Positions 191 through 64,000 of a stretch of 64,000 nt of DNA are shown here, in pieces. The position numbers were made by a program, and so were the translations under genes. The number at the start of each line of letters is the position of its first letter. Position 1 is the stretch's first letter. The stretch covers positions 62,001-126,000 of the forward strand of contig WHVD01000207.1 of assembly GCA_015178975.1 (NCBI GenBank), in the 5' to 3' direction. The DNA is from Hysterangium stoloniferum. Lineage: Eukaryota; Basidiomycota; Agaricomycetes; Hysterangiales; Hysterangiaceae. The notes under the pieces were generated by a model. That model was not told the DNA's origin. It did no database searches and was given only the letters and a program-made list of their open reading frames with translations.

Positions 191-214
191 TGAATGGGAG
201 TGGGTGCACAGTGG

Positions 215-480
215 TGGATGGGTGCGGGTGGATGGGTGTGCAGTGGATGGGTGCAGGTGTGCAGTGGATGGGTGCAGGTGTGCGATGGATGGGTGCACAG
301 TGGATGGGTGTGCCGTGGATGGGTGCATGGTGGATGGGTGCATGGTGGATGGGTGCGCGGTGGATGGGTGCACAGTGGATGGGTGCACAGTGGATGGGAG
401 TGGGTGCACAGTGGATGGGCGTGCGGTGGATAGGTGCGTGGATGGGTGCGTCATGGATGGGTGCACCGTGGGATGGGTGC
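215..480. repeat. 15-bp minisatellite
   Basis: About 17 imperfect copies of tggatgggtgcacag lie head to tail, with occasional insertions such as gtgcaggtg. The period is a multiple of three, so several frames stay open on both strands. I regard these as non-coding. Confidence 0.9.
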
Positions 481-748
481 GCTGAATAAGGAGGTGACTA
501 AGCTGATGGTACCTTTTACCTGCCTTTTACGGCCCTCACAGTGCCTAAAAACACCCACGGACCCACCATGCTCCTTTCACTTATTGGACAAGCCTGGGAA
601 CCCTTGCTACACTGTGGGGCGGTCACTTGGTGACCTGCCCCACAACCTTGCTGTGGGCTCCGGCTTGTTGGGGGGCGAAGCCCCCCAAACCCCCCTGCAT
701 CGACAACTCTTAAGTATTTCTGAGGCCCATTGTTCTAAAAGGGAAGCT
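481..748. other. Spacer with two adjacent GC-rich hairpins
   Basis: No gene is recognised. Positions 613-644 form a near-perfect inverted repeat (TGTGGGGC-GGTCAC against its complement with one bulged T). Positions 668-688 form a perfect 9-bp stem, TTGGGGGGC, with a GAA loop. A similar G-run/C-run hairpin occurs at 34902-34920. Confidence 0.6.
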
Positions 749-1066
749 GTTAGAATGGAAAGTCATGTTAGAATGGAAAGTCATGTTAGAATGGAAAGTC
801 ATGTTAGAATGGAAAGTCATGTTAGAATGGAAAGTCATGTTAGAATGGAAAGTCTTGTTAGAATGGAAAGTTGTGTTAGAACGGAAAGTTGTGTTAGAAC
901 AGAAAGTTGTGTTAGAACGGAAAGTTGTGTTAGAACGGAAAGTTGTGTTAGAACGGAAAGTTGTGTTAGAACGGAAAGTTGTGTTAGAACGGAAAGTTGT
1001 GTTAGAACGGAAAGTCACTTTAGAATGGAAAGTCACTTTAGAACGGAAAGTCACATTAGACGGAAA
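749..1066. repeat. 18-bp tandem array a
   Basis: About 17-18 copies of gttagaatggaaagtcat run without gaps. The left half has the tgg/cat variant and the right half the cgg/tgt variant, so the array expanded as two variant blocks. Open frames exist on both strands because the 18-bp unit lacks stops; no coding is inferred. Confidence 0.92.
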
Positions 1067-1190
1067 GTGTTATAAAGGAAACACCCATTACAAAGGAAAT
1101 ACCCATTACAAAGGAAGGAAACAACAAAGGAAGGAAACAACAAAGGAAGGAAACAACGGTTACAAAGAAAACACCAGTTACAAAAGAAAT
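1067..1190. repeat. Transition zone of short degenerate repeats
   Basis: Three copies of an acaaaggaaggaaacaa-like unit and scattered cacccattacaaagg units join arrays a and b. Nothing else is seen here. Confidence 0.6.
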
Positions 1191-1975
1191 CAACAGTTAC
1201 AAAGGAATCAAGGGTTACAAAGGAATCAAGGGTTACAAAGGAATCAAGGGTTACAAAGGAATCAAGGGTTACAAAGGAATCAAGGGTTACAAAGGAATCA
1301 AGGGTTACAAAGGAATCAAGGGTTACAAAGGAATCAAGGGTTACAAAGGAATCAAGGGTTACAAAGGAATCAAGGGTTACAAAGGAATCAAGGGTTACAA
1401 AGGAATCAAGGGTTACAAAGGAATCAAGGGTTACAAAGGAATCAAGGGTTACAAAGGAATCAAGGGTTACAAAGGAATCAAGGGTTACAAAGGAATCAAG
1501 GGTTACAAAGGAATCAAGGGTTACAAAGGAATCAAGGGTTACAAAGGAATCAAGGGTTACAAAGGAATCAAGGGTTACAAAGGAATCAAGGGTTACAAAG
1601 GAATCAAGGGTTACAAAGGAATCAAGGGTTACAAAGGAATCAAGGGTTACAAAGGAATCAAGGGTTACAAAGGAATCAAGGGTTACAAAGGAATCAAGGG
1701 TTACAAAGGAATCAAGGGTTACAAAGGAATCAAGGGTTACAAAGGAATCAAGGGTTACAAAGGAATCAAGGGTTACAAAGGAATCAACGGCTACAAAGGA
1801 ATCAAGGGTTACAAAGGAATCAATGGTTACAAAGGAATCAACGGTTACAAAGGAATCAATGGTTACAAAGGAATCAACGGTTACAAAGGAATCAAAAGTT
1901 ACAAAGGAATCAACGGTTACAAAGGAATCAATGGTTACAAAGGGAACAACTGTTACAAAAGGGAACAACCATTAC
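1191..1975. repeat. 18-bp tandem array b
   Basis: About 42 copies of ggttacaaaggaatcaag lie head to tail; roughly the first 33 are identical and the last 9 carry point changes. The homogeneous block suggests recent expansion or gene conversion. The frames that would give a hexapeptide repeat on the plus strand and another on the minus strand follow from the period and are not evidence of a protein. Confidence 0.95.
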
Positions 1976-2033
1976 ATAACTTTTAAGTATATCTGGGGCT
2001 TTGCTGTTTTAGAACTAAAGGCATTTAAAGAAC

Positions 2034-2228
2034 GGAAAGTGTTCTAAGAACGGAAAGTGTTCTAAGGACGGAAAGTGTTCTAAGAACGGAAAGTGTTCTA
2101 AGAACGGAAAGTGTTCTAAGAACGGAAAGTGTTCTAAGAACGGAAAGTGTTCTAAGAACGGAAAGTGTTCTAAGAACGGAAAGTGTTCTAAGAATGGAAA
2201 GTGTTCTAAGAACAGACAGTATTCTATG
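2034..2228. repeat. 18-bp tandem array c
   Basis: About 11 copies of gttctaagaacggaaagt. The core agaacggaaagt is shared with array a, so the two arrays are related, and the period equals that of array b. Confidence 0.92.
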
Positions 2229-2249
2229 AATGGAAAACTTTACAAAAGG

Positions 2250-2435
2250 AAACATCAGTCACAAATGGAAGCCACAGCCACAAAAGGAAACAATGGTTAC
2301 AAAAAGAAACAACAGTTACAAAAGGAAACAATGGTTACAAAGGAGACAATGGTTACAAAAGGAAACAACAGTTACACAGGAAACAATGGTTACAAAAGGA
2401 GACAATGGTTACAAAAGGAAAGAGTGGTTAAACTG
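2250..2435. repeat. Degenerate ggttacaaaaggaaacaa repeat
   Basis: About ten imperfect units resembling array b are present, with altered length (18-20 bp) and many substitutions. It looks like an aged relative of array b. It is followed at 2455-2610 by AT-rich low-complexity DNA made of ttatttt-like words, where I see no gene. Confidence 0.75.
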
Positions 2436-2614
2436 ACTCTCAACTGCAAGTAATTACTGTGGTCACTCAATTTATTTATTTTGATTTAATGTATTTTATT
2501 TTGATTTATTGAATTTTATTTTATTTTATTGGTTTTCATTTCATTTCATTTTATTTTTAAACATTTTATATTCATTTATTATATTTAATTTGAATTATTC
2601 TGATTTTATTGAGG

Positions 2615-3157
2615 CCGATCAGAGGGGGACGGAGGAAGAAGGAAACAGTACACACAGCAGCTGGACAAAGAGAGAAGGAAATAGTACACACACCACCTGG
2701 AGGAAAGAGAGGGCTGGTCAGAGGAGGATGGTGGAAGAAGGAAATGGTAGACATACTGTAAGAAAGAGAGAGTAGGCCAATCAGAGGAACATGCACTGGC
2801 TGGAGGAAAGAGAATGGAGGTGAATCAGGGCAGGATGAAGAGAGAAGGAAAGGGTACACAAACCACCTGGAGGGAAGAGAGAGGGCCGATCAGAGCAGGA
2901 TGGAGAGAGAAGGAAATAGTACATGCACTTGCTGGAAGAAAGAGAGAGGGGGCCAATCAGAGCAGGATGGAGGGAGGAGGAAAGGGGACACACACCTCCT
3001 GGAGAAAAGAGAGAGGAGGATGAAGGGAGAAGGAAACGGTAGACGCAGTGGCTGGAGGAAAGAGAGAGGAGGCCGATCAGAGGACAAAGAGAGAAGGAAA
3101 CGGTACACACACCTCCTGGAGGAAAGAGAGAGGACAGGAAATGGTACATGCACCGGC
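2615..3157. repeat. Degenerate tandem repeat, unit about 50-72 bp (array part 2)
   Basis: The same repeat family as 1-190, about eight units. The array is interrupted at 3158 by a solo LTR and resumes at 3787 in register with a 5-bp duplication of ccggc, which belongs to the repeat unit. Confidence 0.85.
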
Positions 3158-3786
3158 TGTGAGAGGTATGGCAAAATACACTCAGGAAATATAGTCGGAT
3201 GAGCTCCTACTATATCTCCTTTATTATTTCTATTTTCTCTCTTTTATTATATCTATAATTAGTTCGACGACCTATGTATGCAGTACATCGACTCTTGTGG
3301 GCGCACACGCAGACTTATGTATTCTAGCGCCCGTAGTTTAGAACTCAGACACTTTTTACACCGCAACCACGACTTACCCAGACACCCATTATAGTGTCCT
3401 GTAAGTTGTGATTGGTGTATCGTCTCGACTGTCACAGATGGGCTTTAGCTATCTACTCTATCAGAGTTTCGAACTGTACCAGTCGAAACTCAATCTTTAT
3501 CTCAACTTGTGTGGACCACATCCACGCTACTCTATTATTCAACTCTCTAGTACTCTACTTTACTCTCGAGTAGTCGTTCAGAATCGCACTTGACAGTCGA
3601 TTCTACTTATTCGTTTTAGCTCTCTACCTTATTCTAGATAGCTACTTCCTTCTACCGTATTGAACTAAGTAGTCAATACACGTTCACTCTGTATTAGACT
3701 TCAACAGTCAATACATCTTAGTGTCATACCTAAATGGTCGATATTCTTCGTATATAGAACGGTTAGAACTTCCACTACTCTTCACA
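3158..3786 (+). mobile_element. Solo LTR (629 bp) inside the tandem repeat
   Basis: The segment begins TGTGAGAGG and ends CTCTTCACA, giving TGTGA/TCACA termini. It is flanked on both sides by ccggc (3153-3157 and 3787-3791), a 5-bp target-site duplication. Its sequence is unlike the purine-rich repeat around it and no coding capacity is visible. The orientation is arbitrary because the ends are symmetrical. I do not recognise the family; it is not the family of the other LTRs in the window. Confidence 0.8.
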
Positions 3787-4250
3787 CCGGCTGGAGGAAA
3801 GAGAGAGGAGGCCAATTAGAGGAGGACGAAGAGAGAAGGAAATGGTACACGCACCTCCTGGACAAAAGAGAGAGGAGGCCAATCAGAGGAGGACAAAGGG
3901 AGAAAGAAACGGTACACCCACCAGCTGGAGGAAAGAGAGGGGGCGAATTAGAGGGGGATGAAGAGAGAAGGAAACGGTACACACACCTCCTGGAGGAAAG
4001 AGAGAGGAGGCCGATCAGAGGAGGATGAAGGGAGGAGGAAACAGTACATGCACTGGCTGGAGGAAAGAGAGAGGAGGACAGAGGGAGAAGGAGCAGTACA
4101 CGCACTGGCTGGAGGAAAGACAGAGGAGGACAAAGGGAGAAGGAGCAGTACATGCACTGGCTGGAGGAAAGAGAGGGGGCCGATCAGAAGAGGACACAGA
4201 GAGAGAGGGAAATGGAACATGCACCGGCTGGAGGAAAGAGGAGGCAAATC
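3787..4250. repeat. Degenerate tandem repeat, unit about 50-72 bp (array part 3)
   Basis: Continuation of the array beyond the solo LTR, about seven units with the same ctggaggaaagagagagg core. It ends where the retroelement debris begins. Confidence 0.85.
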
Positions 4251-8922: not shown

Positions 8923-10096
8923 TTAATGAAGTGTTTCCAGTACCCCAAATCCTTCCTCCATTCCATTTGCAATCTCTGCACTCTCCACCATTTCCTGCAC
9001 TTCCCCATCTTCATTTTCTGGCCTTCCTCCCAACACCCACCTTTTCCCAACAATATCTGCAATGGATCATTCAGCTCATCTTTCTCTTTATCAGCATACC
9101 TTTTGGAAACTGCAATAATACCAATGCTGACAATTACCCTTTCCAGGAACTCGTTTTGTTTCCAGAAGTTCTGATTCAATGCCTGGAAACTTTCTCTTGG
9201 ATGTCATTATGGTGCTCTAACATTTCCTGAACCTTCATCAACTCCATTCCAATAAACACCATCATATTGATGGTATCTCTGAGGAGTCCAATGCTGGTAT
9301 CATTGTCCATATTTGGCACTTCAGTTTCTGCAGTCTTGGCTGTTCCTGAGGTTTCCACAACTGCCACTTTTTCCACCTTCTCAATTTTTTCTACCTTTTG
9401 AGCCTTTTTGCCTTTTGGAGTCTGCTTCACAGCAAGAGTGCATGGAATTTTGTTTACTGTGCAAGGGAAACAAGTTTGGCCCCATTTTATGTACCTTCTG
9501 TCTCCAAAAAGTAATGCCCCAGCTTGCACATTGCTGACATGGAATCTCATGGGCAGTTTCCATCCATTCCAGAGCCCTGGTCTTTTGTTTCCATTTTGGA
9601 AATTAGTCATATTCTGGATCTTTTACAAAATTACTTACCTTTGGACTTGAAGGCCCAGCCTCTTCCTCCTCATCTACCTCATTGGCTTTCCACTGTTGAC
9701 TACCATTATCAGAGATACATGGAACATTACTGGCTCACTTACTTTTCCATCCCGCTTCTCTTTCAACCACTGTTCTTCCACCTCAGCATCCTGCTGCTTC
9801 CTCTCTGCCTCTTCCCATAACCTCTGATCTTCCATCATCTTCTGCAAAACATTCCTTCCTTTTTTCCACCACTTCCTTCTCCACCTTAATCCACTCCAAC
9901 TCACATTTTTCCACCTCTTCTGCCTCTTTCAATTCCCACATCAACTCTCTCTCCTCCTCCTCCTGTTTTCACTTTAACTCTTCCATCCTCTGTTGTTTAT
10001 GTTGAAGTTCTTCAACTTTCGACATTTTGGCAAGCTTGGCAATTTTAGCATCTGAATCTTCTGGAGTGGTGGCAAACAAAGGTAACAAATTGACAT
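8923..10096 (-). pseudogene. Convergent accessory gene of the old family A Ty3 copy (decayed)
   Basis: Antisense to pol and ending about 100 bp beyond the pol stop, this is a decayed homologue of the gene at 60099-61241. Matching parts are the ATGTC start (10094-10096), an E/K-rich coiled-coil exon (about 9870-10030), a cysteine cluster (about 9435-9540) and a C-terminus in which WVL..., VQEMVESAEIA and GFGVLETL match the younger copy. The third cysteine has become phenylalanine and frameshifts divide the exon. An in-frame TGA in exon 1 is at the same codon as in the younger copy. Function is unknown; as it stands the copy is dead. Confidence 0.75.
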
Positions 10097-10284: not shown

Positions 10285-11581
10285 TGTTATGACCCGTTCC
10301 CAGATACTTCAATATCCAATATTATCCGACACATTCTGACTTTTCACCTCAAGTCTCCCATCCGACTTCCCACCTCAATATCTGATCCTGACTTCCAACT
10401 ATGGAACATTTATAATTCCCATACTTCCAGATCTCATCCTTGTTCCATGTTTGGTAACTTGTTGGTTGACAAGTATTCACTCATTTGTGTATTGTATTCC
10501 CATTTCAGAATACTACCAATTCCATCTTATTGTGATCCTAGCTTGTAGTACAATAACAAGAAAACTTATATTAGTTTCTGTGAATTTGTACTTTACATTA
10601 GATCTGTTAAGGACTGAAAACTGACTAATGTCAGTGGCTGACAGGGACTGATCGGAAGGACTTGGCTTCAGCTTATGTGCTGTGCCCTCACAAATGTCCG
10701 TAGGGTGTCCTTAGATTTCGGACGGGTGAAGACTAATCCTAAAGAGTTCCTTTTGGCAAGATACCAATGGGAACCGAAGGACAAGTCGAGTGTCGGGCCA
10801 AGGGGTCAGGGCCGGGAGTGGGTGAGTGCACGCGAAGGTGGATGGGGGGATTCTTAGTATGAGATTGTTACAGACGTATGAGGGTATTCTGAGTTGATAT
10901 TCTGATTTCCTAGTAACTACAACTACAGCGGGTTCATATACAAGTAACAGGTGTCTAGAAAATACTAACGGGGAGAAGGGCGGAAAACGGTATTAACAAT
11001 AAGCTTGACTAGGAACGGGAAGTTTATGATTAGTTCAGAGGCCAATGATAACCGAGAGTGGAATTACGATAAAAGGAAATAGTTTGAGGACTACAAATAT
11101 AGATAGACATATGTGAAACATAGGATAGAACGGATCAACATAATGAAAGGGACGTATCAAAAGTTTAACCAGACAATACAAGTATTTTGACGTGGGTGTA
11201 AATGGAGTTTGATCATCACGAAAGCATACGTCAGCTTCGGGGGCCGATGGTTTCTGACGTGGTGACTTGAAAATGTTGATAAGTGGCGATAACCTCGGGA
11301 CCGATAGGGTTGCGACACGGTCGTAACAAGATCTGATATTGACTTAGTTTCTTACATATTCCTTCCTTCTCTCTGCATGCTTGATATTCAGAACTCTTTG
11401 GAACTCTGAATATCTGTATCCTCCAGTGTAAATCCCATCTCTGAAATTAAGGACTTCTGAGCATTTGCATAGAGGCACAGCACATAAGCTGAAGCCAATG
11501 TCCTGACCCTATTTGAAAGTTTCTGAGTTCCTGGTCACTTTCTGATAGTTCTGGAATAAGTTCTTGACACGGCACTTAACA
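10285..11581 (+). mobile_element. 3' LTR of the old Ty3 copy, interrupted
   Basis: It starts TGTTATGACCCG and ends GGCACTTAACA, as does the LTR at 59329-59913. The two parts, 10285-10604 and 11334-11581, total about 568 bp and are split by another solo LTR. The shared LTR box lies near 11470-11500. No matching 5' LTR is found because the 5' part of the element is lost. Confidence 0.85.
10605..11328 (-). mobile_element. Solo LTR (724 bp), family B, inside the 3' LTR of the old copy
   Basis: The plus strand reads TGTTAAGGACTG ... GTCGTAACA, flanked by agatc at 10600-10604 and 11329-11333. It is closely similar to the LTRs at 15131-15853 and 23483-24099. The shared box on the complementary strand (10654-10690) sets the minus orientation. 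Confidence 0.92.
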
Positions 11582-15130: not shown

Positions 15131-15853
15131 TGTTAAGAACTAAAAACTGACTAATGTCGGTGGCCGACAGGGACCGATCGGAAGGACTTGGCTTCAGCTT
15201 ATGTGCTGCACCCTCGCAAATATCCGTAGGGTGTCCTTAGATTTCAGACTGGCGTAGACTAGTCTTAAAGAGTTCCTTTTGGGGAGATATCGATTGGGAC
15301 CGAAAGACAAGTCAAGTGTCGGGCCAGGGGTCAGGGCCGAGAGTGGACAAGCGCACGCGAAGGCGGATGGGGGGATTCTTAGTATGAGACTGTTACAGAC
15401 GTATGAGGGTATTCTGAGTCGCTATTCTGATTGCCTAGTAACTACAACTACAGCGGGTTCATATACAAGTAACAGGTGTCTAGAAAATACTAATGGGGAG
15501 AAGGGTGGAAAACGGCATTAACAATAAGCTTGACTAGGAACGGGAAGTTTATGATTAGTTCGGAGGCCGATGATAACCGAGAGCGAAATTACAATAAAAG
15601 GAAATAGTTCGAGGACTACAAATATAGATAGGCATATGTGAAACATAGAGTGGAACGGATCAACATAATGAAAGGGACGTATCAAAGCATAACCAGACAG
15701 AAAGGCATAGTCGGGTTTGAATGACCGGAAAGCATACGTCAGCGTCGGGGGACCGACGGCCTCCGAGATATTGCCTTGATTGAAGAAGGATAACTACGAC
15801 AATATACCATCGGTTACCGTCGGCGTGCGAAGGGTTGCGACACAGTCGTAACA
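15131..15853 (-). mobile_element. 3' LTR of the family B element (723 bp)
   Basis: The plus strand reads TGTTAAGAAC ... CAGTCGTAACA. The shared LTR box on the complementary strand lies at 15186-15215. It is nearly identical to 23483-24099 over the shared part. Confidence 0.9.
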
Positions 15854-15969: not shown

Positions 15970-15977
15970 TATAAAAA
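15970..15977 (+). promoter_or_regulatory. TATA box of the convergent accessory gene (family B)
   Basis: TATAAAAA lies 56 bp before the ATG at 16026, between the 3' LTR edge and the gene, at the same spacing as in both family A copies. Confidence 0.65.
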
Positions 15978-16025: not shown

Positions 16026-16473
16026 ATGTCATTGAACACTGGGGCGAAAACCATCCCTGTCAGGCTGAGGGTAACCCCCTTGTCGGGTCCGAGCGGGACG
16101 CCAGATGCACAAGAACGTTGTCGCCAACTAGAGGTGAGAAAGAAGGTGCGTGAGGAGGAGGAACGTAAGGAGATGGAGGAGTTGAAAGTGATTGAGGTGG
16201 CCGAGGTGGAGGAGAAGAGACGGGCTGAGGTGGAAGCTACGTGCAAGCGTTGGGAGGCCGAGCTTGCGAGGAAAAAACAGCAGGAGGCCGGTCGGGCCTG
16301 AGAGGAGGAGGCGAGAAAGAAACGAGAAGGGAAGGTAAGTTTAGGAGGAGCATCGCACTGCGAGCATCTACTAATGTCCCCTTTTCAGCGAAAGGCAGTA
16401 TCGCCGTCGGTCTCCGATGAAGAGGACGAGGAAGACGATGATGAGGCTGGAGGGCCTTTGAGCCTGAAGGTGC

Positions 16474-16508
<35 letters not shown>

Positions 16509-18318
16509 TTTTTTGCTATTACTGACTTTTAGTGACAGAGACAAAAAGGGGCCCCCAAGGTGGGGCCCGAAAATTGTAACCGCTGCACTGCTCGGAATCG
16601 AGCTTGTCATCCTTGGGCAAACGGTCGGTGTAAGGTATCCGGCTATTTACTCTCTCAAATAATTAACAAGCGTTGACACGGCAAGGGATTCAAGAAATAA
16701 ACAAATAAAGGTCCAGTAATTTAAATACTGATAGATTAATTAGCTGCGCTATTAAGCTTAAACAACTAAAGTCAATATTTGTTTGGTCTCTTGACAAATT
16801 CAGATGAACTTGTAGTGATGTGCTCTACGAAAGTTAAGTTCTCTTTGAGAATAAAGGTTCGGGAGCTGAATGTATGCGCAATAAGTTGGCAGAAACTTGT
16901 CGTAAGCCTTCGCTTTCTTGTAGCCTTTTAGTTTACTATTTATAAAGATTTAACAAGCTGTTAAATAATTTATAAATAGAGAGATTGTCCGAGAGTCGAA
17001 TATCCAAGCGTTTGTTTAAAGATCGATTAACTGTGCTGTTAAAATGGGCTCTTGAATAACCTAAACGGGCAGGGATTTCAGTAATGAGAATTTAGATTTA
17101 CTTAAGTGATTAGTAAGCCTAAAGGTTTTCCGGGAAGCTGAGGGAACTTAGATGAATTAGCTAAGTTCAAGAGTTGCTGAGAAAGAGTTCAAAATGCTGC
17201 AAGTGTAGGTGCTTGCAGTTAGTAAATCAGACTAAGGCTATTTTTGTCCTTAGGATGATTAGATAAGCTTATGAGCTGGTGCTGTTGATAGTAGTAAAGT
17301 AGTAGTAATTTATTCAGTGATTTAGGCCTCCTTTTATACATGTAGAGATTTTTGCTTAATAATAGCTAAATAACTAATTAGGAAATTATTAGAAGCTTCT
17401 AAAAGTTTCTATAATTCCGCTATGATGTCATAGCTATCACCTGACTCGAAGATCCGAACCGAAGATCCGAACCGGTCAAGTCAGGAATTAAACCCGGGAT
17501 GGCCGAGGGTGGAAGCAAAATAAGCCATGGCGCCGAAACGGAAATAAACGCGGCTGGCGGCTGCGAAAACTACTCGCGACGATTTGTAAACACGTCGCGA
17601 CGTCGTCGTCACGTGATGTCACGTGATCGCACGATAATAATGCGCATATATGTACTAATATAATATAATAAAAACCCGGTCTCTCGAAATCAGATAACCC
17701 GGCTTTATTATACTTATATTTCGACCGCTCTAGGCTTCGATTACATAATATGATGTCATTCGAAGCTTTGAGTATTCGAAGTTAAAAGGAAATAGCCTAA
17801 TTCTTGAATTAATAAATAAAATAAAATAGAATAAAATAAATTGAAATAAATTTGGGAAAATTAAGGGAAAATTCGTGAATATATACTAGATACATCACAG
17901 TCGGGGCTGTACATGTCAAGAGTGTGCGGGTCAAAAACTCAGTTGTACCTTCCCTGGGGCCGATGTGGGTGCGATCTACGGGGAGCACCAGACGGACGTG
18001 ATGGAGGAACAAAACCGCCTTATGCGGTTGTACTTCTCGGAGACCACTTGGTGGCGAACCGAGTCTCTGCGACAGCAGGGACTCTTTCAAGAGCAAATGC
18101 GACTGCTGGGAGTTGCTATCAGAGAACAGATGGCCATGTTACAATGGGTCGGGGGGCAGCTCGAGCAGTACCTCGAGTTACCTAGTTCAGACGAGGTTGA
18201 GCCAGTTAGGGCCTTGGAGGAAGCTGGAGGAAAAGGAATATCAGTTGCTGTCAGTGAAGCGCGAGCTTTGGAGGCCGAGGAGGAAGGGGAAGTAGTGGAG
18301 GGTACTTTAGATAGTTGA
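16026..18318 (+). pseudogene. Convergent accessory gene of the family B Ty3 element (Zn2Cys6-like, split by a solo LTR)
   Basis: The gene runs opposite to pol and ends 141 bp from the pol stop. Exon 1 (16026-16334) encodes a charged E/K/R-rich coiled coil and carries one in-frame TGA (16299-16301) at a former CGA. Intron 1 is 16335-16388 (gtaagt, ctaat, cag); exon 2 (16389-16469) is acidic; intron 2 ends at about 16538. Exon 3 holds six cysteines in the order CX2CX6CX10CX2CX6C, but a 1271-bp solo LTR sits after residue seven of the central spacer. The reading frame is continuous when LTR and duplication are disregarded. The C-terminal part (17965-18318) is helical and glutamine/glutamate rich. 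The cysteine spacing suggests a zinc-binding, possibly DNA-binding, fold; the role is unknown. Confidence 0.75.
16629..17899. mobile_element. Solo LTR (1271 bp) inside the accessory gene
   Basis: It begins TGTAAGGTATCC and ends GATACATCACA, flanked by gtcgg at 16624-16628 and 17900-17904. The insertion falls between the two halves of the cysteine cluster. It does not resemble the other LTRs here. It contains E-box-like cacgtgatgtcacgtgat near 17610-17630. Confidence 0.88.
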
Positions 18319-18459
18319 CAAAAATAATAATTTTGACTTAATTCTCTTTTTCTTTTGAAAACGTGAATTGAAATTGAAAAGGCATCGGATAGTGAGACTT
18401 GATAGTTTAAGTTCAACTTGAGGTTTGAGGATCGGAGGCCGTCGGGTGCCGTGTGAAGA

Positions 18460-21400
18460 CTAAAGAGAGTCTAAAGGACTGGGTTTGTTCGGGTACATTT
18501 GATGGAAAACTAAAACAATTTCTGACGCATTGCCAAGTTCGGTGGCGAGGATCCAGGAAGTTTCTTCATCTGTACCTTCATAGCCAGTCCATTTGACCAA
18601 ATAAAGTAACTTGCACGATCGCCTGCGATTGTCGATCTTGGAGTCTAGGATTTCCAATATTTCAAATTCGGGTTCCCCATCAATGATCACGGGTGGTGGT
18701 GGTGGTTGTATACGATCTGGTATAGCGTTAGCAATGTAGGGTTCTAACATAGATACATGGAAGACCGGGTGGACTGCACGCATGTTGTCGGGAAGCTGAA
18801 GCGTCCATGAAAGTGTGCCAGCTTGTGCTATAACTTCAAAAGGACCTAAATATTTTTCAGAGAGCTTCTTAGAAGGTCTAGTAGTTCGGAAAAACTCGGC
18901 TTTAATGAAGACTCGGTCTCCGATCTTGAAATCAGGAGGCAGAAGTCGGTTTTTATCCGCAGACTGTTGGTATCATTCTTGAGCCATTGCGATAGTTTTA
19001 CGAAGTTCTTGATGTAGCTCGTCAAGGTTTGTAACAAAGTCTTGAGCACGGGCGGATGTGAGATTGCATTCCGGGTGGATTGCGATGTTGGGATTGTAGC
19101 CTTTATTTGTGAAGAAAGGCGAAATGCCGGTAGTGGCATTTGGTGCATTGTTGTATGCGAATTCAGCTAATGGTAGTAGTGATTTCCAATTGTCTTGTTG
19201 ATAGTTGCAATAGACACGGATGTATTGTTCCAAGGTTTGATTCATGCGTTCGGTTTGGCCATCGCCTTCTGGGTGATAGCCCGAAGTGAAATGTAGCTTC
19301 ATGTCTAGTGCTTTTCCGAGTGACCTAAAGAAGTGAGAGACAAACTCAGATCCGCGATCGGATGTGACATGCGACGGAATGCCATGCTTGGAGAATACAT
19401 GGGTGACGAATAATTCAGCTAACTGTACAGATGTTATCGTGTCATATGTTGGAATGAAAATACTTTGTTTCGAGAGCCGATCTACCACAACTAGGATTGC
19501 TGTGTGACCTTCGGATGCCGGTAGGTGCTCGATAAAATCCATAGAAATTGAGTTCCAAGGTTTTTCCGGTATTGGTAATTGTTTGAGTAGGCCATATGGT
19601 TTGTGTCGCTGTGATTTAGAGCGTAAACACGTAGTACAAGATTTACAATAGTGCTTAACGAAATCTCAGATGCCGGGCCATGTATATTCTCTTCTAATGA
19701 GTGAGAGGGTCTTATTGAGGCTGAAATGTCCCGAGATTGGGTGGTCGTGCTTATGTTGTAGAATTCGCAGCCGAAGGGTGTTGGAGTCCGGTACATAAAT
19801 GCGATTGTCAAGTCTAATGAAACCTTGTGAGTCTAATGACCATCGGGGTTGATCGGGGTCGGACGGGTTATCGAGGTGTGCTTTGGTGACTGGGTCTAAT
19901 GGAATTGCCGATAGAATGTCTTGATGTAACTTTTCGGTATCCATAAGGATAACACTTCGCAAGACTGGATGAATGAGGTAAGTGGCTCGGATAGACGCAG
20001 ACAGTTGTTCCGATGAAAACATAGGCTTGAAATTATGCGGATTAACTGTGGTGTAGTCGCTACTCCCCTCTTTAGGATAGATGTCCCATCGTCTAGTCAT
20101 AGCGTTGGGTTTTCCACCAAGGTGGCCAGGACGGAACCAAATTACCATGTTGAAAGCAGAGAGGTATTCGGACCATCGAGCTTGTCGATGGGTGAGAAGT
20201 TTTGTGGTTGAAAAGTAAACTAAATTTTTGTGGTCTGTAATAACATCTACCAGGTGGGCTGAGCCTTCCAAATAATGTCGCCATGTCTTGAAAGCTTCAA
20301 ATATTGCAAGTAGTTCCTTATTGTGAACGTCATAGTTGAGTTCAGGCGTTGAAAATGTGCGAGACAGAAGAGCTACTGGGTGTACTTCACCATCGGTGTC
20401 CAGAATGGACAATATCGCAGCAAGCGCATAGTCCGAGGCATCAGTTTCCACGATGAGTTGAACATCTGGCTTCCAGTGCGACAAAATAGGGGCAGATGTA
20501 AATGCACTTTTCAATTCCTGGAATGCCGATCGGCATTCTTCGGAGAAAATCCACGGGGCATCTTTGCGAGTAAGATGAGTGAGCGGAATGGTAATTTTTG
20601 AGTAGTTGTGAATGAAACGACAATAAAAATTGGCGAAGCCTAAAAAGGATTGAATATCCTTAACCTTTCGGGGTTCCGGCCAATCTTGAATGACTTGAAT
20701 TTTAGAGTCGTCCATGCGAAGACCGTCAGGTTCCATCATGAACCCTAAATATTCAACTGTGTTGACATCAAAAGAACATTTTTTACCATTCGCAAAAAGA
20801 CCATGTTTTCGGAGTCTTCGGAGAACTTCACAAACGTGTTCATCATGAAGTGTAGGATCTTCGGAGAATATGAGGATGTCGTCTAAGTACACAATGACAA
20901 AAACGTCAAGGAGGTCGGAAAAAATGTTGTTGATAAAACGTTGAAAGACCGACGGAGTGTTGGTGAGGCCGAAAGGCATTACTAACCATTCAAAGGAGCC
21001 ATAGCGAGTGCGAAAAGCCGTTTTCCATTCGTCACCTTCGGCGATCTGAACCAAATGATAGGCATGCTTGAGATCTATCTTTGTATAGATTCGGGCCTTC
21101 CGAGGGGCATCGAGTAAATCGGAGATTAGTGGTAATGGGTACTTGTCTTTTTGAGTGATCGCATTTAGTCCTCGAAAATCAACGCAAAGTCGAAGGGAAC
21201 CGTCTTTTTTCCGAACGAATAGGACAGGGGCTCCATAAGGAGACTTTGAGGGTCGGATAAAACCTATAGCCAAATGTTCGTCCAAGAAATCTCGGATAGC
21301 CGATAATTCGGACTGCGAGAGAGGATAAACTGGGCCTAGGGGTGGATGTGAACCATCTTCAATATCAATTTTCAAATCATAAGGCCTGTGAGGGGCGAGT

Positions 21401-22157
21401 CGATCTGCTTTTTGTTTACTGAAGACATCTGCAAACTCATGGTATTTTTTGGGAACACCTTCCAAATCTGCAATCGGTTCGGCCACCGGGGATGCAAAGT
21501 GACCGGTGACTTCATCAAATTTAAGATTGACTGTAAATGCTTGGGAGCCATCCAACTTGATGGCTCTCATAAAAGCTGCGGCGTTTATTAGAGAGACGGG
21601 CGGCGGAGAGCTCGGATTTGCCACGAGGGCCAGAGGTGCTGTAGAGGCCATATTTGCCAAAACAGGCGGAAACGGACCAGTCATATCGGGTGCCAACGGG
21701 GTTCGGAAATGGATACTGCCCAGTACCCAATCAATCAACGGATTGTAGCAGGTGAGCCAGTTATGTCCTAGAACCACGGAGCAACTCGGGTCCAACTGTG
21801 TTACAAAAAACGTAACTGTCTGAAAGGTTCCACACGAGAACTGAAGTCGGAGTTCGCAGGCTTGCGAGATTACGGAGTTTGAGGTACCATCAAAGAGTCA
21901 GAGTGGGATCGGGTCTATTGCATAGGTTTTTAACTGATTTTTTTGGGAAAAACTTGTATCTATAAAGCAATGGGTTGAACCTGAATCTATGAGGGCTCGA
22001 AAAGTGAGATTCCCGAGAGGTTCTGAAGTAAGATTTATGAACAAAGAATTAGGATCATACAAGGTGGATGCATTAAGGTGACAATTTTCCAGTGTGCGAG
22101 GAGATTCAACGCAACTCTCCAATCGCACAGAATCCAGAGAGTTGCTTAGTCTTTTTT
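18460..22157 (-). pseudogene. pol of the family B Ty3 element (PR-RT-RNase H-IN-chromodomain)
   Basis: The polyprotein is almost continuous. The protease carries ALIDSGSTHCFID (about 21960-22000). RT carries YLDD with the flanking [15 protein letters not shown] (about 20870-20910). RNase H contains TDASDYALAAIL (about 20410-20450). The integrase zinc-binding region contains HDHPISGHF; its core has SMDFIEHLP, TSDRGSEFVSHFF and the glutamate of GYHPEGDGQTE. The C-terminal chromodomain (18460-18680) reads YLVKWTGYEGTDEETSW. Stops at 21898, 19666 and 18973 interrupt it; the first two are CGA-to-TGA changes. It is reached from gag by a probable -1 shift near 22152. The chromodomain is expected to direct integration to marked chromatin. 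Confidence 0.9.
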
Positions 22158-29249: not shown

Positions 29250-29485
29250 TGTTAGAATATAGGGCTGTGCGAGCATGCATAAGGTGCCACACCGGCAATT
29301 TGCCACCCCATTGTTCAGCGTAACCTTTTGTTGCCATACGTCTATTGTTCTCAAGGCGTATATAACTCGTATAGATTTTTGTATTTACGCTATCCGTTTG
29401 CCTCCTACGAGACACAGAGGATCAAACGGAAATCACATTCGTCCTTGTTTCTGATTGTTGCGAGCTTCGAGATTTTATTCCAACA
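29250..29485 (-). mobile_element. Solo LTR (236 bp), same family as the TRIM-like element
   Basis: The reverse complement begins TGTTGGAATAAAATCTCG and ends TATATTCTAACA, the same length and sequence as the LTRs at 30884 and 31698. The flanks tgtta and tgcta match at four of five positions. Confidence 0.88.
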
Positions 29486-30883
29486 TGCTACCCCTTATTT
29501 TTGGACACGAAAAGCTCGGGGTCTGCTGTAAAACCTGACGTCGAGGCCAACCCGGCTTCTCTCACTAAACCCACTCAGGGCCTTACTACTTCAGAAGCAC
29601 TACCATTGGGGGGCGTAGACCTCGCGTCCGTCTCATTACCGCCCTCACCTATCAAACCCGAAATGATTTTTGACCATGACGAGCATGATCATGATCACGA
29701 TCACGAAGATGAACATATCAAGGCAAAAACACAAAACCACCCGTGCAAGATAAAGGCACCGGTGAGAACACGAATACCAAATTGGAAGCATCGGAGATAC
29801 CCCCCGCGACGCCGGATTGGTTCCGTTGAAGAAGCCCGCCCTTTTGCCGATCAAGTATTCAAGTATACTTTTTAGAAGACATGGTGGTTGCTCCCTGGCA
29901 CATGATTTACTTACCGTGGGGATTCTGTTTTCAAAGTTCACACGGCCGTTGACTTTTCGAATTTGACTTAAGACGCGCGAAAGTATTCGTATTAGGACCA
30001 TATCCTCGCAAAGAAAAAAAAATGCAATGGATTACTTGTAGCTTGATCTCCATATCAATGGTGCATGTTGATTTACTGATACGCCAACTGCGATGAATTT
30101 TACTCAAGATTTCCAGAAACATCACCCATGAAATGTTTGTATACTTGCTGAACGCTTGTTAACTAGCTTTTAGTATTGTTGCATTTCCTGAAATCCTCTC
30201 GCCGCGCCCCTGGAACCACGATCACACCATGGATCTGTTTATCCTATCATTATTTTCGCAGTCCCATCGACGATACTCACGGATCACAGATGCATTGCAC
30301 TATGCGACAACCACGTACAATCAACATACCGTGGTCGCTCCTTACAGGGTCAGTTTGAACTTCCTGTCCTTGAAGGTAGACTAAAGCTTATCTACAGCCG
30401 CCCTGATATCCATATTTTTAAGGATCTTTTGAGTGTTTCTCTAAGGTCAAGGACTGCTGATTTCTGTAATGTGATTGTATATTCAGTTTTACATATATTC
30501 AAGAACTTTTATTGATTTCGTCTGTTATAGATAGGAGGGTCATTCGGTGGCTGCCGCACTGCCGCGTTGTTCCTAATGGCATGTTTTTTACTACTGTTTA
30601 AGAAACTTGGGCAGTGAACGTTGTATTACAAGAACTTGTCGAAAGCCTGGACATGGAAGACAGGGAAGAGCCATCAATTCGGGGGGCTCACATTGACATT
30701 AAGGTTCAAACCGTCGGCCTCCTCTCTCTGTGTGTAGGGAACCACGGAAGTAAATATGGCTGATGGGGCTCATAATGATGATGCTTGACTATAACTGTTT
30801 CAAGACTTTCCGCACTGATTCATACATGTCCACTGGCATGACAGGTCGTCCGACAAGGTAAGTTGCCTACCTCTATTAGGATA
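29486..30883. other. Stretch without a recognised gene
   Basis: An open frame at 29501-29875 contains an Asp/His run (about 29675-29715: alternating gat/gac and cat/cac codons) with coding-like composition on either side, but no family is recognised and the frame is not closed by splice signals I trust. The rest, up to 30883, holds no identifiable feature. Confidence 0.3.
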
Positions 30884-31933
30884 TGTTGGAATAAAATCTC
30901 GAAGCTCACAACAATCAGAAACAAGGATGAATGTGATTTCCATTTGACCCTCTGTGTCTCGTAGGAGGCAAACGGATAGCGTAAATACAAAAATCTATAC
31001 TAGTTATATACACCTTGAGAACAATAGACGTATGGCAACAAAAGGTTACGCTGAACAATGGGGTGGCAAATTGCCGGTGTGGCACCTTATGCATGCTCGC
31101 ACAGCCCTATATTCTAATACACTCCCTCGAGCAAAACAAGGTGCCAAAAGCACTCCCTGAAATTCTGAAAATTCTCCAAAAATCTCTCAGCTTCTTCAAT
31201 GCTTCCCAAATCCCTCTAAAATCTTCTGGAGGCCCGCTCAAGGCATTTCTTCGATGGTCTTCTGGAGGCCCGCTCAAGGCACTCCCTTGTCGGTCTTCTG
31301 GTGGCTCGCTCAAAGCACTCCCTCGATTCTTCTTCTGCTCAAACGGCATAAGGAGGCCCGCTCAAGGCTCCCTTCTTCAGTTCTTCTGCCCCCAGGCTCA
31401 TGGAGGACTTCCTCTGCAAGTTTAGAGGCATTGCAGGCCTTCTTCTGCAAGTTTAGATGCTGCGCAAGCCTTCTTCTGCCTCGGCGACAAGAGGACTTTG
31501 GTCTGCGCTCCGAGTGAGCGGCTTTCTGCGGCGTGATGGACAACGGCAGGAATTGGACATCAGAGCGTGAGTCTTCAACTCCAGCGGCATCTGAGAGGTC
31601 AAGAAGTCGAGTTGGCAGCGGGGAACGAGAGCCAGCGACGACGACAACTACGAAGTGAATATGTTACTGACCCACTCGAAAGGACAGGATCCGTTTGTGT
31701 TGGAATAAAATCTCGAAGCTCACAACAATCAGAAACAAGGACGAATGTAATTTCCGTTTGACCCTCTGTGTCTCGTAGGAGGCAAACGGATAGCGTAAAT
31801 ACAAAAATCTATACTAGTTATATACGCCTTGAGAACAATAGACGTATGGCAACAAAAGGTTACGCTGAACAATGGGGTGGCAAATTGCCGGTGTGGCACC
31901 TTATGCATGCTCGCACAGCCCTATATCCTAACA
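30884..31933 (+). mobile_element. TRIM-like non-autonomous LTR retrotransposon, complete (1050 bp)
   Basis: Two 236-bp LTRs (30884-31119 and 31698-31933) flank a 578-bp internal region, and ggata occurs on both sides (30879-30883 and 31934-31938). The LTRs begin TGTTGGAATAAAATC and end TATATCCTAACA (CTAATA in the 5' copy), and differ at about six sites. The internal part has no gag or pol and consists largely of repeats around cttctggaggcccgctcaag. Size and structure fit a terminal-repeat retrotransposon in miniature mobilised in trans. The LTR termini look more Copia-like than like the Ty3 LTRs in the window, which is only an impression. Confidence 0.88.
31218..31480. repeat. Internal repeats of the TRIM-like element
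   Basis: About five copies of a unit with cttctggaggcccgctcaagg, spaced about 35-40 bp, then two copies of a ttcttctgcaagtttag unit. Open frames through them are not considered coding. Confidence 0.75.
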
Positions 31934-59328: not shown

Positions 59329-59913
59329 TGTTAAGTGCCGTGTCGGGAACTTATTCCGGAACTATCGGGAAGTCACCGGAAGGTCGGGAACAACTAGATA
59401 GGGTCAGGACGTCGGCTTCAGCTCATGTGCTGCGCCTCTACGCAAACGCTCAATGTCCTTAATTTCGGAGGTGAGACTTGTGATGGGAGTTACGGATATT
59501 CAGAGTTCCGAAGAGTTCCGAATATCGAGCGTACAGAAAGACGGGAGAAGGAATAAGAAACTAAGTCGATATCAGATCTAAGGTAAAGTACAAATTCGCG
59601 GAAACTAATATAAGTCTGCTCATTATTGTACTACAAACTAAGACCATAATAAGACGGAAATGGAAGTGTTCTTAAAACGGAAATACAATAAGACATATTA
59701 GGAAGGCAATATTCCGTAACAGGAATATAACAAACAAACGAGTGAATACTTGTCAACGGACAAATTACCAAATGCGGAACAAAGGAAGCATGCGGATGAT
59801 ACGGTAACTATGATGTTCCGTAGTCGGAGGTCAAAGTCGGAAGTCGGGGATCGGAAGTCGGGAGTGGGAGACCGGAAGTCGGATATTGAAACATCCGGGA
59901 ACGGGTCATAACA
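59329..59913 (-). mobile_element. 3' LTR of the younger family A copy (585 bp)
   Basis: The plus strand reads TGTTAAGTGCCG ... GGGTCATAACA. The same LTR is present decayed at 13678-14264 and interrupted at 10285-11581. Confidence 0.9.
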
Positions 59914-60041: not shown

Positions 60042-60049
60042 TATAAAAA
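60042..60049 (+). promoter_or_regulatory. TATA box of the convergent accessory gene (younger copy)
   Basis: TATAAAAA lies 57 bp before the ATG at 60099; see the matching boxes at 15970 and 10145. Confidence 0.65.
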
Positions 60050-60098: not shown

Positions 60099-61241
60099 AT
60101 GTCGATTCGTCGGCTGTTGTTCATCACTACCCCGGAAGACTCAGATACCGAAATATCCGTACTTCAAAAGATGTCGAAGGTCGCAGAACTTCAACAAAAA
60201 CGCCAGAAAATGGAGGAGTTGAAGTGACGACAGGAGGAGGAGGAAAGAGTGTTGATGCAGGAGTTAAAGGATGCGGAGGAGGCGGAAAAGCGGGAATTGG
60301 AGCGGGCGAAGGCGGAAAAAGAAGCATGGATACGGAAAACAGCGGAGGCGCAGAAAAAGAAAGAGGAGATGGAAAGATTACAGCGGGAGTCGCAGGTGGC
60401 GGAAAAACTGAAGGAGATAAGGGAAGGAAAGGTAAGTTTGACCCATACATTCCGTGATTCCAACCGATAACTATTGATGCAGCGAAAAGCCGTGGAGGTG
60501 GACATAGAGGGCGAAGCTGGACCTTCGAGTCCTAAAGTGAGTGTATCTGTAACGGGAATGGTAGTCGTTTAACTTCCGAAACAGAAACCAAAGGTCAAAG
60601 CTCCGGAACAAATGGAAGTCGTCCATGAAACTCCGTGTTATCGATGTTCCATATGGAACATGACATGTTGGAAACAGAAGGTAAAATGGGGCGGAACTTG
60701 CTATCCCTGCGCGGTTCTCAAACTTCCGTGCACCCTTGCCTCAAAAAGGGTTCCGAAAGGTGAGAAGACTCCGAAAACTAATGACGTGGGAAGTTCAGGA
60801 GCGACCAAAGCTACGGAAACTGAAACGTCGAAAACGGATAGTACAGGCATTGAGCTTCTCAAGGAAACCGTCGATGTGTTGGTTTTTATCGGGACGGAAG
60901 TCATGAAAATGCGGGATACAATGGATCGTCATAATGATATCCAGGAGAAAGGTTTCCGTTCGTTGGTCCGGAATTTCCGGAGGCAAAATGATTTCCTGGA
61001 GAAGATAATGGTTAGCATTGGTGTAATCGCAGTATCCGAGGGGTTTTCCGATAAGGCATGGGAAAAAGCTAATGATCCGTTGGCGGAATGTGTTGAAAAG
61101 AGGTGGGTGTCGGGAAAAGGGCCGGAAGAATCAGAGAGTGAAGATGAAGAGGTACAGGATATGGTGGAAAGTGCGGAAATTGCTGAAGAGCCGGAGGTTG
61201 GGACGGAAGGTAGATTTGGGGTGTCAGAGACTTTGAGATAG
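60099..61241 (+). CDS. Convergent accessory gene of Ty3 family A: coiled coil plus Zn2Cys6-like cluster
   Basis: The gene lies opposite to pol, between the pol stop (88 bp away) and the 3' LTR. Exon 1 (60099-60431) encodes an E/K-rich coiled coil (EEAEKRELERAKAEKEAW); intron 1 60432-60482; exon 2 (60483-60536) RKAVEVDIEGEAGPSSPK; intron 2 60537-60584; exon 3 (60585-61241). Exon 3 begins with six cysteines at residues 147, 150, 157, 168, 171 and 178 (CX2CX6CX10CX2CX6C; 60636-60731), then a Lys/Thr-rich linker, a helical region (DIQEKGFRSLVRNF) and an acidic tail. A TGA at 60225-60227 interrupts exon 1; translation may start downstream (ATG 60255) or the copy may be inactive. The cysteine spacing is that of fungal zinc-cluster proteins, which suggests zinc and nucleic-acid binding; the role is unknown. 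Confidence 0.75.
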
Positions 61242-61329: not shown

Positions 61330-64000
61330 TTAGAGTGATGATAAAGGTCCGGGTTTGCCTGGATAAGCCGTGTGGAAGTCAGTAACAATTTCCATAGCAT
61401 GTCCAAGTTCCGTGGCCAATATCCATGAAGTTTCCTCGTCGGTACCTTCATAACCTGCCCATTTAACTAAATAGAGCAATTTACAAGTACGTCGGCGATT
61501 GTCGATTTTAGAATCCAAAATTTCGGAAACTTCAAATTCGGGTTCTCCATCAATGATGACCGGAGGGGACGGAGGTTGAATACGTTCCGGGAATGAGTTA
61601 GGAACACAAGGTTCTAACATGGAAACGTGGAAAACGGGGTGGACTGCTCGCATACTGTCGGGAAGACGGAGAGTCCATGAAAGTGAACCGGCTTGTGCTA
61701 TAATTTCAAAAGGTCCTAAGAATTTCTCAGCGAGTTTTTTAGAAGGTCGGGTAGTACGGAAGAATTGAGCTTTTACAAAAACCTGATCACCAATTTTAAA
61801 ATTAGGAGGCGGGATCCTGTTTTTGTCCGCGGAACATTGATAATATTCCTGTGGGGAAGAAATAGCTTTCCGAAGTTCTTGATGTAATTCGTCGAGATCG
61901 GTAATAAATTCTTGAGCACGGACCGAAGCCAAATCTCGTTCGGAATGTACTGTGAGATTCGGATTATAGCCTTTATTGGCGAAGAAGGGAGATATGCCGG
62001 TGGTTGCATTCGGGGAGTTATTGTAGGCGAATTCCGCGATCGGAAGAAGGGATTTCCAGTTGTCCTGTTGGTAATTACAATAGATGCGGAGATATTGTTC
62101 CAGTGTTTGATTAACGCGTTCCGTTTGTCCATCACCTTCTGGGTGATATCCCGAGGTGAAGTGTAGTTTCATGTCGAGGGCTTTTCCGAGGGCCTGGAAG
62201 AAATGGGAGACGAACTTGGAGCCTCGATCGGAAGTTACGTGAGATGGAACTCCGTGTTTGGAAAATACGTGAATAATGAAAAGTTCCACTAATTGTAAGG
62301 ACGTGATTGTATCATGAGTGGGTATGAAAATGCCTTGTTTCGAGAATCGGTCCACAACAACTAGAATGGATGTAAAGCCTTCGGAAGTCGGGAGTTGTTC
62401 GATAAAATCCATGGAAATTGAATTCCAAGGTTTTTCTGGTATCGGGAGTTGCTTGAGAAGGCCGTATGGCTTATGCCTCTGGGTTTTGGAGCGTAAGCAG
62501 GTGGTGCATGACTTACAGAACTGAGTTACGAAATCTCGGAGGTTGGGCCAAGTATATTCTCTACGGATTAAACCAAGAGTATTGTTGATGCCGTAATGTC
62601 CGGAGATTGGATGATCATGTTTATACTGAAGTACGCAGAGTCGAAGATTGTCGGAATCTGGAACGTAGATACGTCCATCGAGACGGATAAAACCTTGAGA
62701 GTCTTGTGACCATCGGGGTTGGTTGGGATTGTCGGGAATGTCTAAATGTGGCTTGAGGGCCGGGTCGGAAGTGAGTGCGGAAAGGATATCTTGATGTAAT
62801 TGCTCAATGTCCATAATCATGACGCTACGCATAATTGGATAGTAAAGGGAAGTTGCTCGGATAGATGCAGAAAGTTGTTGCATTGTAAAAACCGGTTTCA
62901 AGTTATGCGGATTAACAACAGCGTAGTTACTTTCCCTCTTTAGGATAGACGTCCCATCGTCGAGTCATGGCATCTGGCTTTCCACCAAGGCGTCCGGGTC
63001 GGAAACGGATAATCATGTTGAAAGCGGAAAGGAATTCAGACCAACGGGCCTGCCGGCGGGTTAAAAGTTTAGTGGTAGAAAAATATTCGAGATTTTTGTG
63101 ATCGGTAACAACGTCAACGGGAGTTGCAGAACCTTCGAGATAATGGCGCCAATGTTTGAAAGCTTCAAAAATAGCCAAAAGTTCCTTCTCATGAACGTCG
63201 TAATTGAGTTCGGATACTGAAAGTGTCCGAGAAAGAAATGCGACCGGATGAATTTCACCGTCGGAATCTTGAATGGAAAGGATCGCGGCAATTGCATAAT
63301 CGGAAGCATCGGTTTCCACAATAATCGGAACATCAGGTTTCCAATGGGAAAGGATCGGGGCAGAAGTGAAAGCATTTTTTAAAGTCTGGAAGGCGGAGCG
63401 GCATTTATCGTCAAAAACCCCATGGTTGAGTTTTACGGGTAAGACGAGTGAGCGGTACTGTAATATCCGAGTAGTTCCGAATAAAACGACGGTAAAAGTT
63501 GGCGAAACCTAAAAATGATTGAATGTCCTTGACCTTCCGTGGTTCGGGCCAGTCACGGACAACTTGAACCTTGGTTTCATCCATACGGAGACCATCAGGG
63601 CCGATGATGAAACCTAAAGTATTCAATAGAATCCATGTCGAAATAACATTTTTTACCGTTGGTGAAAAGACCGTTTTTACGGAGTCTTCGGAAGACTTCA
63701 CGGACCTGTTCATCGTGAAGGGCAGGATCCTCGGAAAATACCAAAATGTCGTCCAAATAGACTATAACACATACGTCAAGCATGTCGGAAAATATATCAT
63801 TAACAAAACGTTGAAAAGTGGAAGGGGCGTTGGTAAGGCCGAATGGCATAACCAACCATTCAAAGGATCCATAGCGAGTCCGAAAAAGCAGTTTTCCATT
63901 CGTCGCCCTCGGCAATTCGACCAAATGATAGGCGTGTTTGAGGTCTATTTTGGTGTAAATCCGAGCTTTCCGTGGGGCATCGAGTAAATCGGTAACGAGT
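61330..64000 (-). pseudogene. pol of the younger family A copy (RT to chromodomain)
   Basis: The integrase-chromodomain part (62901-61330) is a clean 523-codon frame: HDHPISGHYGINNTLG, CKSCTTCLRSKTQRH, SMDFIEQLPTSEG, TSDRGSKFVSHFF, GYHPEGDGQTERVNQTLE, and a chromodomain YLVKWAGYEGTDEETSW. RNase H (63319-62927) is followed by a frameshift against the related copies at KEGK. RT (63924-63411) keeps [14 protein letters not shown] but is shifted in frame near 63615 and 63420. Small indels therefore break the polyprotein. The upstream part is outside the window. Confidence 0.88.

Follow-up and report, generated by a model that had tools for sequence, protein, structure and literature searches.

The window analysed here is a stretch of 64,000 nucleotides (contig WHVD01000207.1, positions 62,001 to 126,000, forward strand) from the 111-Mb genome of Hysterangium stoloniferum, a false truffle that has been termed ectomycorrhizal (PMC7550596). 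It holds three copies of chromoviruses (Ty3/Gypsy retrotransposons) in which an additional gene lies between the pol stop codon and the 3' long terminal repeat (LTR), convergent with pol. This antisense gene is coding and is under selection on its protein. Its product is a probable DNA-binding protein of a Zn2Cys6-like kind, and gene-bearing elements, but not control elements, are rich in short CGG words specific to their family. A CGG-reading protein encoded amid such words would most simply be an element-encoded regulator of its own kind, and on balance we favour the reading that it binds the CGG word of its own family throughout the element and keeps the members transcribed, by activation or by shielding.

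The antisense gene and selection on its protein

The pol strand of these elements codes for integrase, an SH3 domain and then a chromodomain; in window 61333–62901 (minus strand) the Pfam domains rve, SH3_Tf2-1 and Chromo all scored above their cut-offs. The antisense gene has three exons, namely a coiled-coil-like exon, a short exon starting with RKAV and a zinc-cluster exon. An earlier note on the window had described this plan at 8923–10096 (minus), 16026–18318 (plus) and 60099–61241 (plus), hereafter copies 1, 2 and 3, and we found it in all three, with the ATGTC start, RKAV exon 2 and cysteine-rich exon as described. The distance between the gene stop and the pol stop, given there as 90–140 bp, was measured as 89 bp in copy 3 (61241 to 61330), about 141 bp in copy 2 (18318 to 18460) and about 100 bp in copy 1. 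A TATAAA motif precedes the ATG by 56–57 bp in each of them. The copy 3 element was taken as family 1 and copy 2 as family 2, copy 1 being a decayed relative of family 1.

Searching the genome with exon 3 of copy 3 gave 939 first-look candidates, 150 of which were scored (identity 71–100%). Exon 3 of copy 2 gave 332 candidates, and the 150 scored fell into two groups, family 2 (about 68–91% besides the window copy) and family 3 (about 49–60%). A fourth family was discovered behind a reverse transcriptase match; it comprises two loci with the same antisense gene plan (L104 and L107) and a fragment ended by a contig end (L108), and its pol DNA is about 75–77% identical to that of families 1 and 2. 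The antisense homologues that the earlier note had looked for in other Ty3 copies are thus present, including a family outside the window. Families 1–3, from which the six-cysteine counts below are taken, share about 26% identity. The claimed position between pol and the 3' LTR also held: the 30 family-1 loci had a convergent pol downstream in 30 cases, an LTR upstream in 29 and a TATAAAA motif in 29, the single locus without the LTR being cut by a contig end, and the family-2 loci had pol (29/30) and LTR (25/30) in conserved position and orientation. Family-1 introns are of the GT-AG type; both introns fitted one pattern in 28 of the 40 copies, and in all 28 exon 2 was 54 nt and intron 2 was 48 nt long. 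Relatives outside H. stoloniferum were not found in a set of 5.8 billion proteins, searched at a sensitivity set by shared 5-residue words; nothing was obtained at E 0.001, and at E up to 10 only two proteins, both of H. stoloniferum.

All three window copies are defective. Among the scored matches, exon 3 was stop-free in about 112 of 150 for copy 3 and about 88 of 150 for copy 2 (counted by eye), and on close examination it had no stop in 26 of the 30 best-matching family-1 sequences and in 15 of 24 family-2 copies. It was also open in 10/10 further family-1 and 13/14 family-3 copies, counts which are uninformative on frequency because these copies were chosen from rows listed as stop-free. 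Exon 1 was stop-free in 22 of the 27 family-1 loci that could be assessed (of 30). The sets used for comparing frames comprised 40 family-1, 24 family-2 and 14 family-3 copies of exon 3, six of 30 family-2 loci with indels or an insert having been dropped beforehand. Each of the other five frames was open in 0/40, 0/24 and 0/14 copies, respectively.

The ratio of nonsynonymous to synonymous substitution rates (dN/dS; Nei-Gojobori, in divergence bins) of exon 3 was 0.21–0.31 in family 1, 0.18–0.33 in family 2 and 0.11–0.41 in family 3. Four of the five other frames gave 0.90–1.54 (pairs with dS of 0.2–0.7); the mirror frame on the pol strand, which shares its third positions with the gene frame and is never open, gave 0.29–0.30. 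Exon 1 (32 copies) and the pol C-terminus (28 copies) both had a ratio of 0.25, and the gene is therefore constrained about as strongly as pol. The past selection suggested in the earlier note was borne out, the ratio among copies being about 0.2 and not near 1, and the possibility of neutral cargo was excluded by these values.

Introns lying opposite to the genomic-RNA strand are not removed before reverse transcription. Their survival in the elements can be understood because the genomic RNA contains no more than the reverse complement of each, and the introns argue for a separate antisense transcript.

A Zn2Cys6-like product and CGG words in the elements

Fungal Zn2Cys6 clusters follow the pattern C-x2-C-x6-C-x5-12-C-x2-C-x6-8-C. 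The six-cysteine pattern was present in families 1, 2 and 3, in 40/40, 23/24 and 11/14 copies, respectively (74/78 in total), and two family-4 copies showed an x9 spacing in it. Alignment of 11 chosen sequences from the four families left as invariant the six cysteines, one glycine and one lysine of the cluster. When compared with PDB, the four-family profile placed PPR1 first (E 0.02), LAC9 second (0.083) and LEU3 lower (2.4), and a profile of families 1–3 again placed PPR1 first (E 0.059). AlphaFold models were of low confidence (mean predicted local distance difference test scores of 55.7 and 65.8), although the long helix that follows the cluster was predicted confidently. Eleven of the 12 Foldseek matches of the family-1 model were Zn2Cys6 domains, every E being above 0.5, and the best-fitting ones had root-mean-square deviations of 1.8–2.3 Å over 33–39 residues; the best VIA row for this model was vimentin, on the helix.

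Several results weigh against this assignment. No single PDB or fold match to Zn2Cys6 was significant, and no Zn2Cys6 chain was found in PDB with families 2 and 3 alone or with one family-4 sequence. The Pfam family Zn_clus (PF00172) stayed below its cut-off (10.5, 10.1 and 9.7 bits vs 21) and was not listed for families 2 and 3 in the Pfam scan. In addition, the family-3 model gave no Zn2Cys6 or useful fold match, exon 3 had no further domain of a fungal transcription factor in Pfam, and an NCBIfam search returned nothing useful. Of the zinc-cluster protein proposed in the earlier note, the cysteine pattern therefore stood, whereas a Pfam match above cut-off was not obtained. Since the Pfam scores are below cut-off and the fold and profile matches are weak, we named the product Zn2Cys6-like.

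CGG is the triplet read by Zn2Cys6 proteins. Each family was found to have words of this kind in both LTR and coding DNA: CGGAA marks family 1, TCGG both family 2 and family 3, and CGGAG/CGGAC family 4. Compared with a dinucleotide model, CGGAA ranked first among 5-mers in the window family-1 element and two diverged copies (12–14 per kb) and shared first place with TTCTG when ten diverged family-1 genes were pooled (8 per kb); its density was 1.3 per kb in neighbouring DNA and 0.4–1.1 per kb in copia elements. TCGG was the top 4-mer in family 2 and two family-3 copies (13–16 per kb, and 21 per kb in locus L043), with 4.5 per kb in neighbouring DNA and 0.4–4.1 per kb in copia. In family 4 the top 4-mer was CGGA (24 per kb), CGGAG and CGGAC each being enriched about 3.1-fold. 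The words were mutually specific: CGGAA reached 1.2–1.9-fold in families 2–4, and TCGG 0.8–1.5-fold in families 1 and 4.

In dinucleotide shuffles, the five gene-bearing sets gave z values of 12.6, 10.7, 7.1, 7.3 and 8.6, whereas five controls (gypsy elements L105 and L106 and three copia elements, some tested with only one of the words) gave −2.3 to 1.5. The words had been picked from the data themselves; the controls' own top words reached z values of up to 4.8 (copia) and of 2.7 and 3.5 (the two gypsy elements), and none of them was a CGG word. The six-cysteine frame was absent from the stretches examined of these five elements (for copia, part of each element).

LTR or upstream pieces alone were also enriched. 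Among family-1 segments, CGGAA density peaked in the LTR (24 per kb), and the copy 3 LTR (59340–59912) contained 14 CGGAA compared with 1.8 in dinucleotide shuffles. This LTR has two word-bearing arrays, a short degenerate one of AGTCGGA (59822–59883) and one of AGAGTTCCGA (59502–59522), but most words lie outside them, including in coding DNA; one 10-bp TCGG-bearing repeat was located at the family-2 LTR end. In family-1 pol and exon 3 the CGGAA excess survived synonymous-codon shuffling, the result being less clear in families 2–4. Preferred word spacings in families 2 and 3 were 10 bp direct and TCGG-N2/3-CCGA inverted, with 0 of 2000 in the spacing statistics of family 2 and P values of 0.018 and 0.040 in family 3, the latter to be read with caution because a host stretch gave a nominal P of 0.011 (21-bp TCGG spacing); no preferred spacing was found for family 1 in the same test. 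CGGAA sites were not better retained than other CG sites, and in copy 1, which is CpG-decayed, CGGAA was absent and TGGAA in excess. CpG density was about 40–70 per kb in gene-bearing elements, 14–29 in control elements and 36 in neighbouring DNA. It was also noticed that copia copies with long open frames (L101–L103) were CpG-poor (14–16 per kb). The four families are related and so count as a single evolutionary origin, within which the word has taken at least three states, and not as four separate instances.

Proposed role and rival explanations

In the favoured reading, the antisense unit would have a TATA promoter of its own, just internal to the 3' LTR, and splicing of its transcript would lead to a protein with a coiled-coil-like N-terminus, a zinc cluster, a long helix and an acidic tail. 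This protein would bind the CGG-centred word repeated over its own family, as given above for families 1–4, and act in trans on family members, whose transcription it would maintain either as an activator or by protecting them from CpG methylation and heterochromatin. Expression and splicing of the unit, binding of zinc and of DNA by its product, and the sign of the effect are predictions from sequence. We infer the regulatory role, for which the family-specific CGG words in gene-bearing elements, and not in controls, constitute independent support. Because the words are not confined to the LTR but extend into coding DNA, coating of the element is suggested over promoter control alone, and anti-silencing is therefore favoured. 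It is possible, though doubtful, that the whole amounts to an anti-silencing system evolved by this retrotransposon lineage, consisting of an antisense zinc-cluster protein and about 12–24 matching CGG words per kb distributed through the element and its coding DNA, in which protein and word would have changed together and gene versions would be exchangeable; it would then be a counterpart, reached independently from a fungal transcription factor, of the VANC proteins of Arabidopsis VANDAL elements.

Other explanations were weighed, and the probabilities given to them overlap and are not required to sum to one. The words may have arisen from context-dependent mutation, methylation, codon bias or shared ancestry, unrelated to the protein; the gene-bearing elements are indeed CpG-rich (about 40–70 per kb) and the controls CpG-poor (14–29), the sites are not specially conserved and the families are related. 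However, the shuffles keep CpG constant, the favoured word differs between related families of one genome, and no such excess is seen in neighbouring DNA at 36 CpG per kb, which leaves this origin rather unlikely. We regard as unlikely, too, an ordinary transcriptional activator working at the LTR only, with the element-wide words as a by-product of something else. CGGAA is densest in the LTR (24 per kb), and the acidic tail and post-cluster helix resemble those of fungal activators, but in pol, at a distance from the promoter, the words are equally specific to each family, and in family 1 they exceed synonymous-codon shuffles. Restriction to the LTR is also the difficulty of a repressor that would damp sense transcription and limit copy number, as HBZ of human T-lymphotropic virus 1 (HTLV-1) lowers 5' LTR activity: such control leaves the words throughout pol and the gene unexplained, and the gene-bearing families are at high copy number (939 first-look candidates). 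The anatomy is the same, a spliced antisense gene by the 3' LTR with a transcription-factor-like product (PMC10186651), and words are present in the LTR; still, we consider a repressor decidedly unlikely.

The two remaining alternatives bear on the gene itself. Elements can be regulated by antisense transcription as such, a point discussed for plants (PMC7264820), and the antisense RNA might be the product, as a decoy or a source of double-stranded RNA, with the protein incidental; this is very improbable in view of a dN/dS of about 0.2 and conserved cysteines, which indicate selection on the protein. A conserved, env-like frame on the pol strand would agree with the low dN/dS of the mirror frame (0.29–0.30), but the ATG, TATA box and introns are on the opposite strand, making it the most improbable reading of all; sense-strand coding was rejected, the mirror frame being open in none of the 40, 24 and 14 copies.

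Window copies, gene bodies and known systems

Over a stretch of 290 bp covering the gene stop and the pol end, some copies matched the window at 97–98% identity while their exon 3 protein reached only 75–77%. Such mismatched copies (C517, C548, C301, C538 and C33) made up 5 of the 34 pairable places, these 34 of 40 having been paired by eye between the backbone and exon 3 listings. In locus C475, identity to the window was high in the promoter (96%), post-stop region (96%), pol (97%), exon 2 (93%), LTR (92%) and first part of exon 1 (91%), but low in the second part of exon 1 (70%), the introns (65–78%) and exon 3 (82%). These results suggest that the gene body behaves as an exchangeable module, most simply via recombination between co-packaged RNAs. 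Compared with window 59340–62500, strongly diverged gene bodies within near-identical element backbones were also seen in L075, L077 and L093–L096.

The features of the window are listed in Table 1. The great length of 16026–18318 is due to a 1,271-bp LTR-like insert in exon 3 of copy 2; of the spliced gene claimed there, the plan was recovered, whereas exon 3 is interrupted. A long third intron was ruled out by the TG...CA ends and 5-bp duplication of the insert and by the uninterrupted relative L043. In copy 2 only intron 2 would bring an in-frame stop if unspliced. The earlier note had overlooked this insertion, the decay of all three copies, the CGG words and the diverged gene versions in near-identical elements.

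Table 1. Features of the antisense gene copies and their elements in the 64,000-nucleotide window
Feature	Position	Strand	Remark
Copy 1, decayed family-1 relative	8923..10096	-	frameshifts, stops, CpG decay
3' LTR of family-2 element (copy 2)	15131..15853	-	TCGG 16 vs 5.5 in shuffles
Copy 2 TATA box	15970..15977	+	56 bp before ATG
Copy 2 exon 1	16026..16334	+	coiled-coil-like; one in-frame stop
Copy 2 exon 2	16389..16469	+	
Copy 2 exon 3, first part	16539..16628	+	carries first three cysteines
LTR-like insertion in copy 2 exon 3	16629..17899		1,271 bp; TG...CA ends; 5-bp duplication GTCGG
Copy 2 exon 3, second part with stop	17905..18318	+	
Family-2 pol (reverse transcriptase, RNase H)	19669..21795	-	CCGA/TCGG top 4-mer vs synonymous-codon shuffles
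3' LTR of family-1 element	59329..59913	-	start approximate
TATA box of antisense unit, copy 3	60042..60049	+	57 bp before ATG
Copy 3 exon 1	60099..60431	+	coiled-coil-like by composition, no prediction tool; one in-frame stop
Copy 3 intron 1	60432..60482	+	GT...AG; stop present if unspliced
Copy 3 exon 2	60483..60536	+	RKAV...PSSPK
Copy 3 intron 2	60537..60584	+	GT...AG; stop present if unspliced
Copy 3 exon 3	60585..61241	+	intact; putative zinc cluster C-x2-C-x6-C-x10-C-x2-C-x6-C, long helix, acidic tail
Pol C-terminal part (integrase, SH3, chromodomain)	61330..62901	-	convergent with antisense gene

Partial family-2 LTR copies were located at window 10617–11095 and 40315–40532, one of them inverted and the first adjoining the decayed copy 1. 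Elsewhere in the window, an 18-bp tandem array (694–2258 and 42–4103; 44 and 26 overlapping copies) lies amid a repeat family of about 67 bp and holds an open frame of 404 amino acids (765–1979), and a 235-bp repeat occurs in three copies, 97–98% identical and one inverted (29250–29486, 30883–31117 and 31698–31933). Outside the window, L106, of a chromodomain-type gypsy family, carries a sense-direction frame of 197 amino acids past pol (655–1245, minus strand), and no antisense gene was found there.

The cysteine spacing, post-cluster helix and CGG core word are those of the fungal Zn2Cys6 factors PPR1, LAC9, LEU3, GAL4 and Pho7, from which the antisense product differs in being below the Pfam cut-off and encoded by a retrotransposon. 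Antisense genes at this position are already known from plants and Botrytis, and a spliced antisense regulator from HTLV-1. In plant Gypsy elements (maize Grande gene23, rice RIRE2 and Retand), additional open reading frames likewise lie antisense between pol and the 3' LTR; that of Grande has its own upstream promoter and some of the plant products are nuclear, but no clear protein similarity is described there and the review's main text does not mention introns (PMC7264820), nor do the words intron and zinc appear in the Retand paper. The gene brtn of the Boty-like Gypsy elements of Botrytis cinerea is, judging from a title and passing mentions, likewise an extra gene on the antisense strand of a fungal Gypsy element with a chromodomain; these mentions describe no zinc cluster, splicing or DNA words. 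HBZ, a bZIP-type factor, and the APH proteins, described as LTR regulators, are likewise products of spliced antisense genes under the control of the 3' LTR, but they are of bZIP type and not zinc clusters, belong to retroviruses and are described there with no genome-wide binding word (PMC10186651). VANC is likewise element-encoded, with a short family-specific word accumulated in the element and different words in related families (PMC5735166, PMC10398659), and such accumulation was found here as well. VANDAL elements are, however, DNA transposons, and VANC binds non-coding tandem-repeat regions, whereas here the words are also in coding DNA; VANC itself is an anti-silencing protein (PMC5735166, PMC10398659).

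A zinc-cluster antisense gene or saturation with CGG words was not found for fungal retrotransposons in the literature covered (titles and abstract openings of top-ranked results, mostly open papers). Nor was any earlier description found there of a zinc-cluster character, of a three-exon plan shared between families or of words that differ by family. Antisense genes of plant LTR elements have been described without assigned function (PMC7264820). Here, a product resembling a recognisable DNA-binding class, together with a partner word that differs between families, makes the function testable with one purified protein and short DNA. If the favoured reading is true, a retrotransposon would be shown to place the sites bound by its own regulator within its coding sequence, which would also offer a sequence-specific handle on silencing in fungi.
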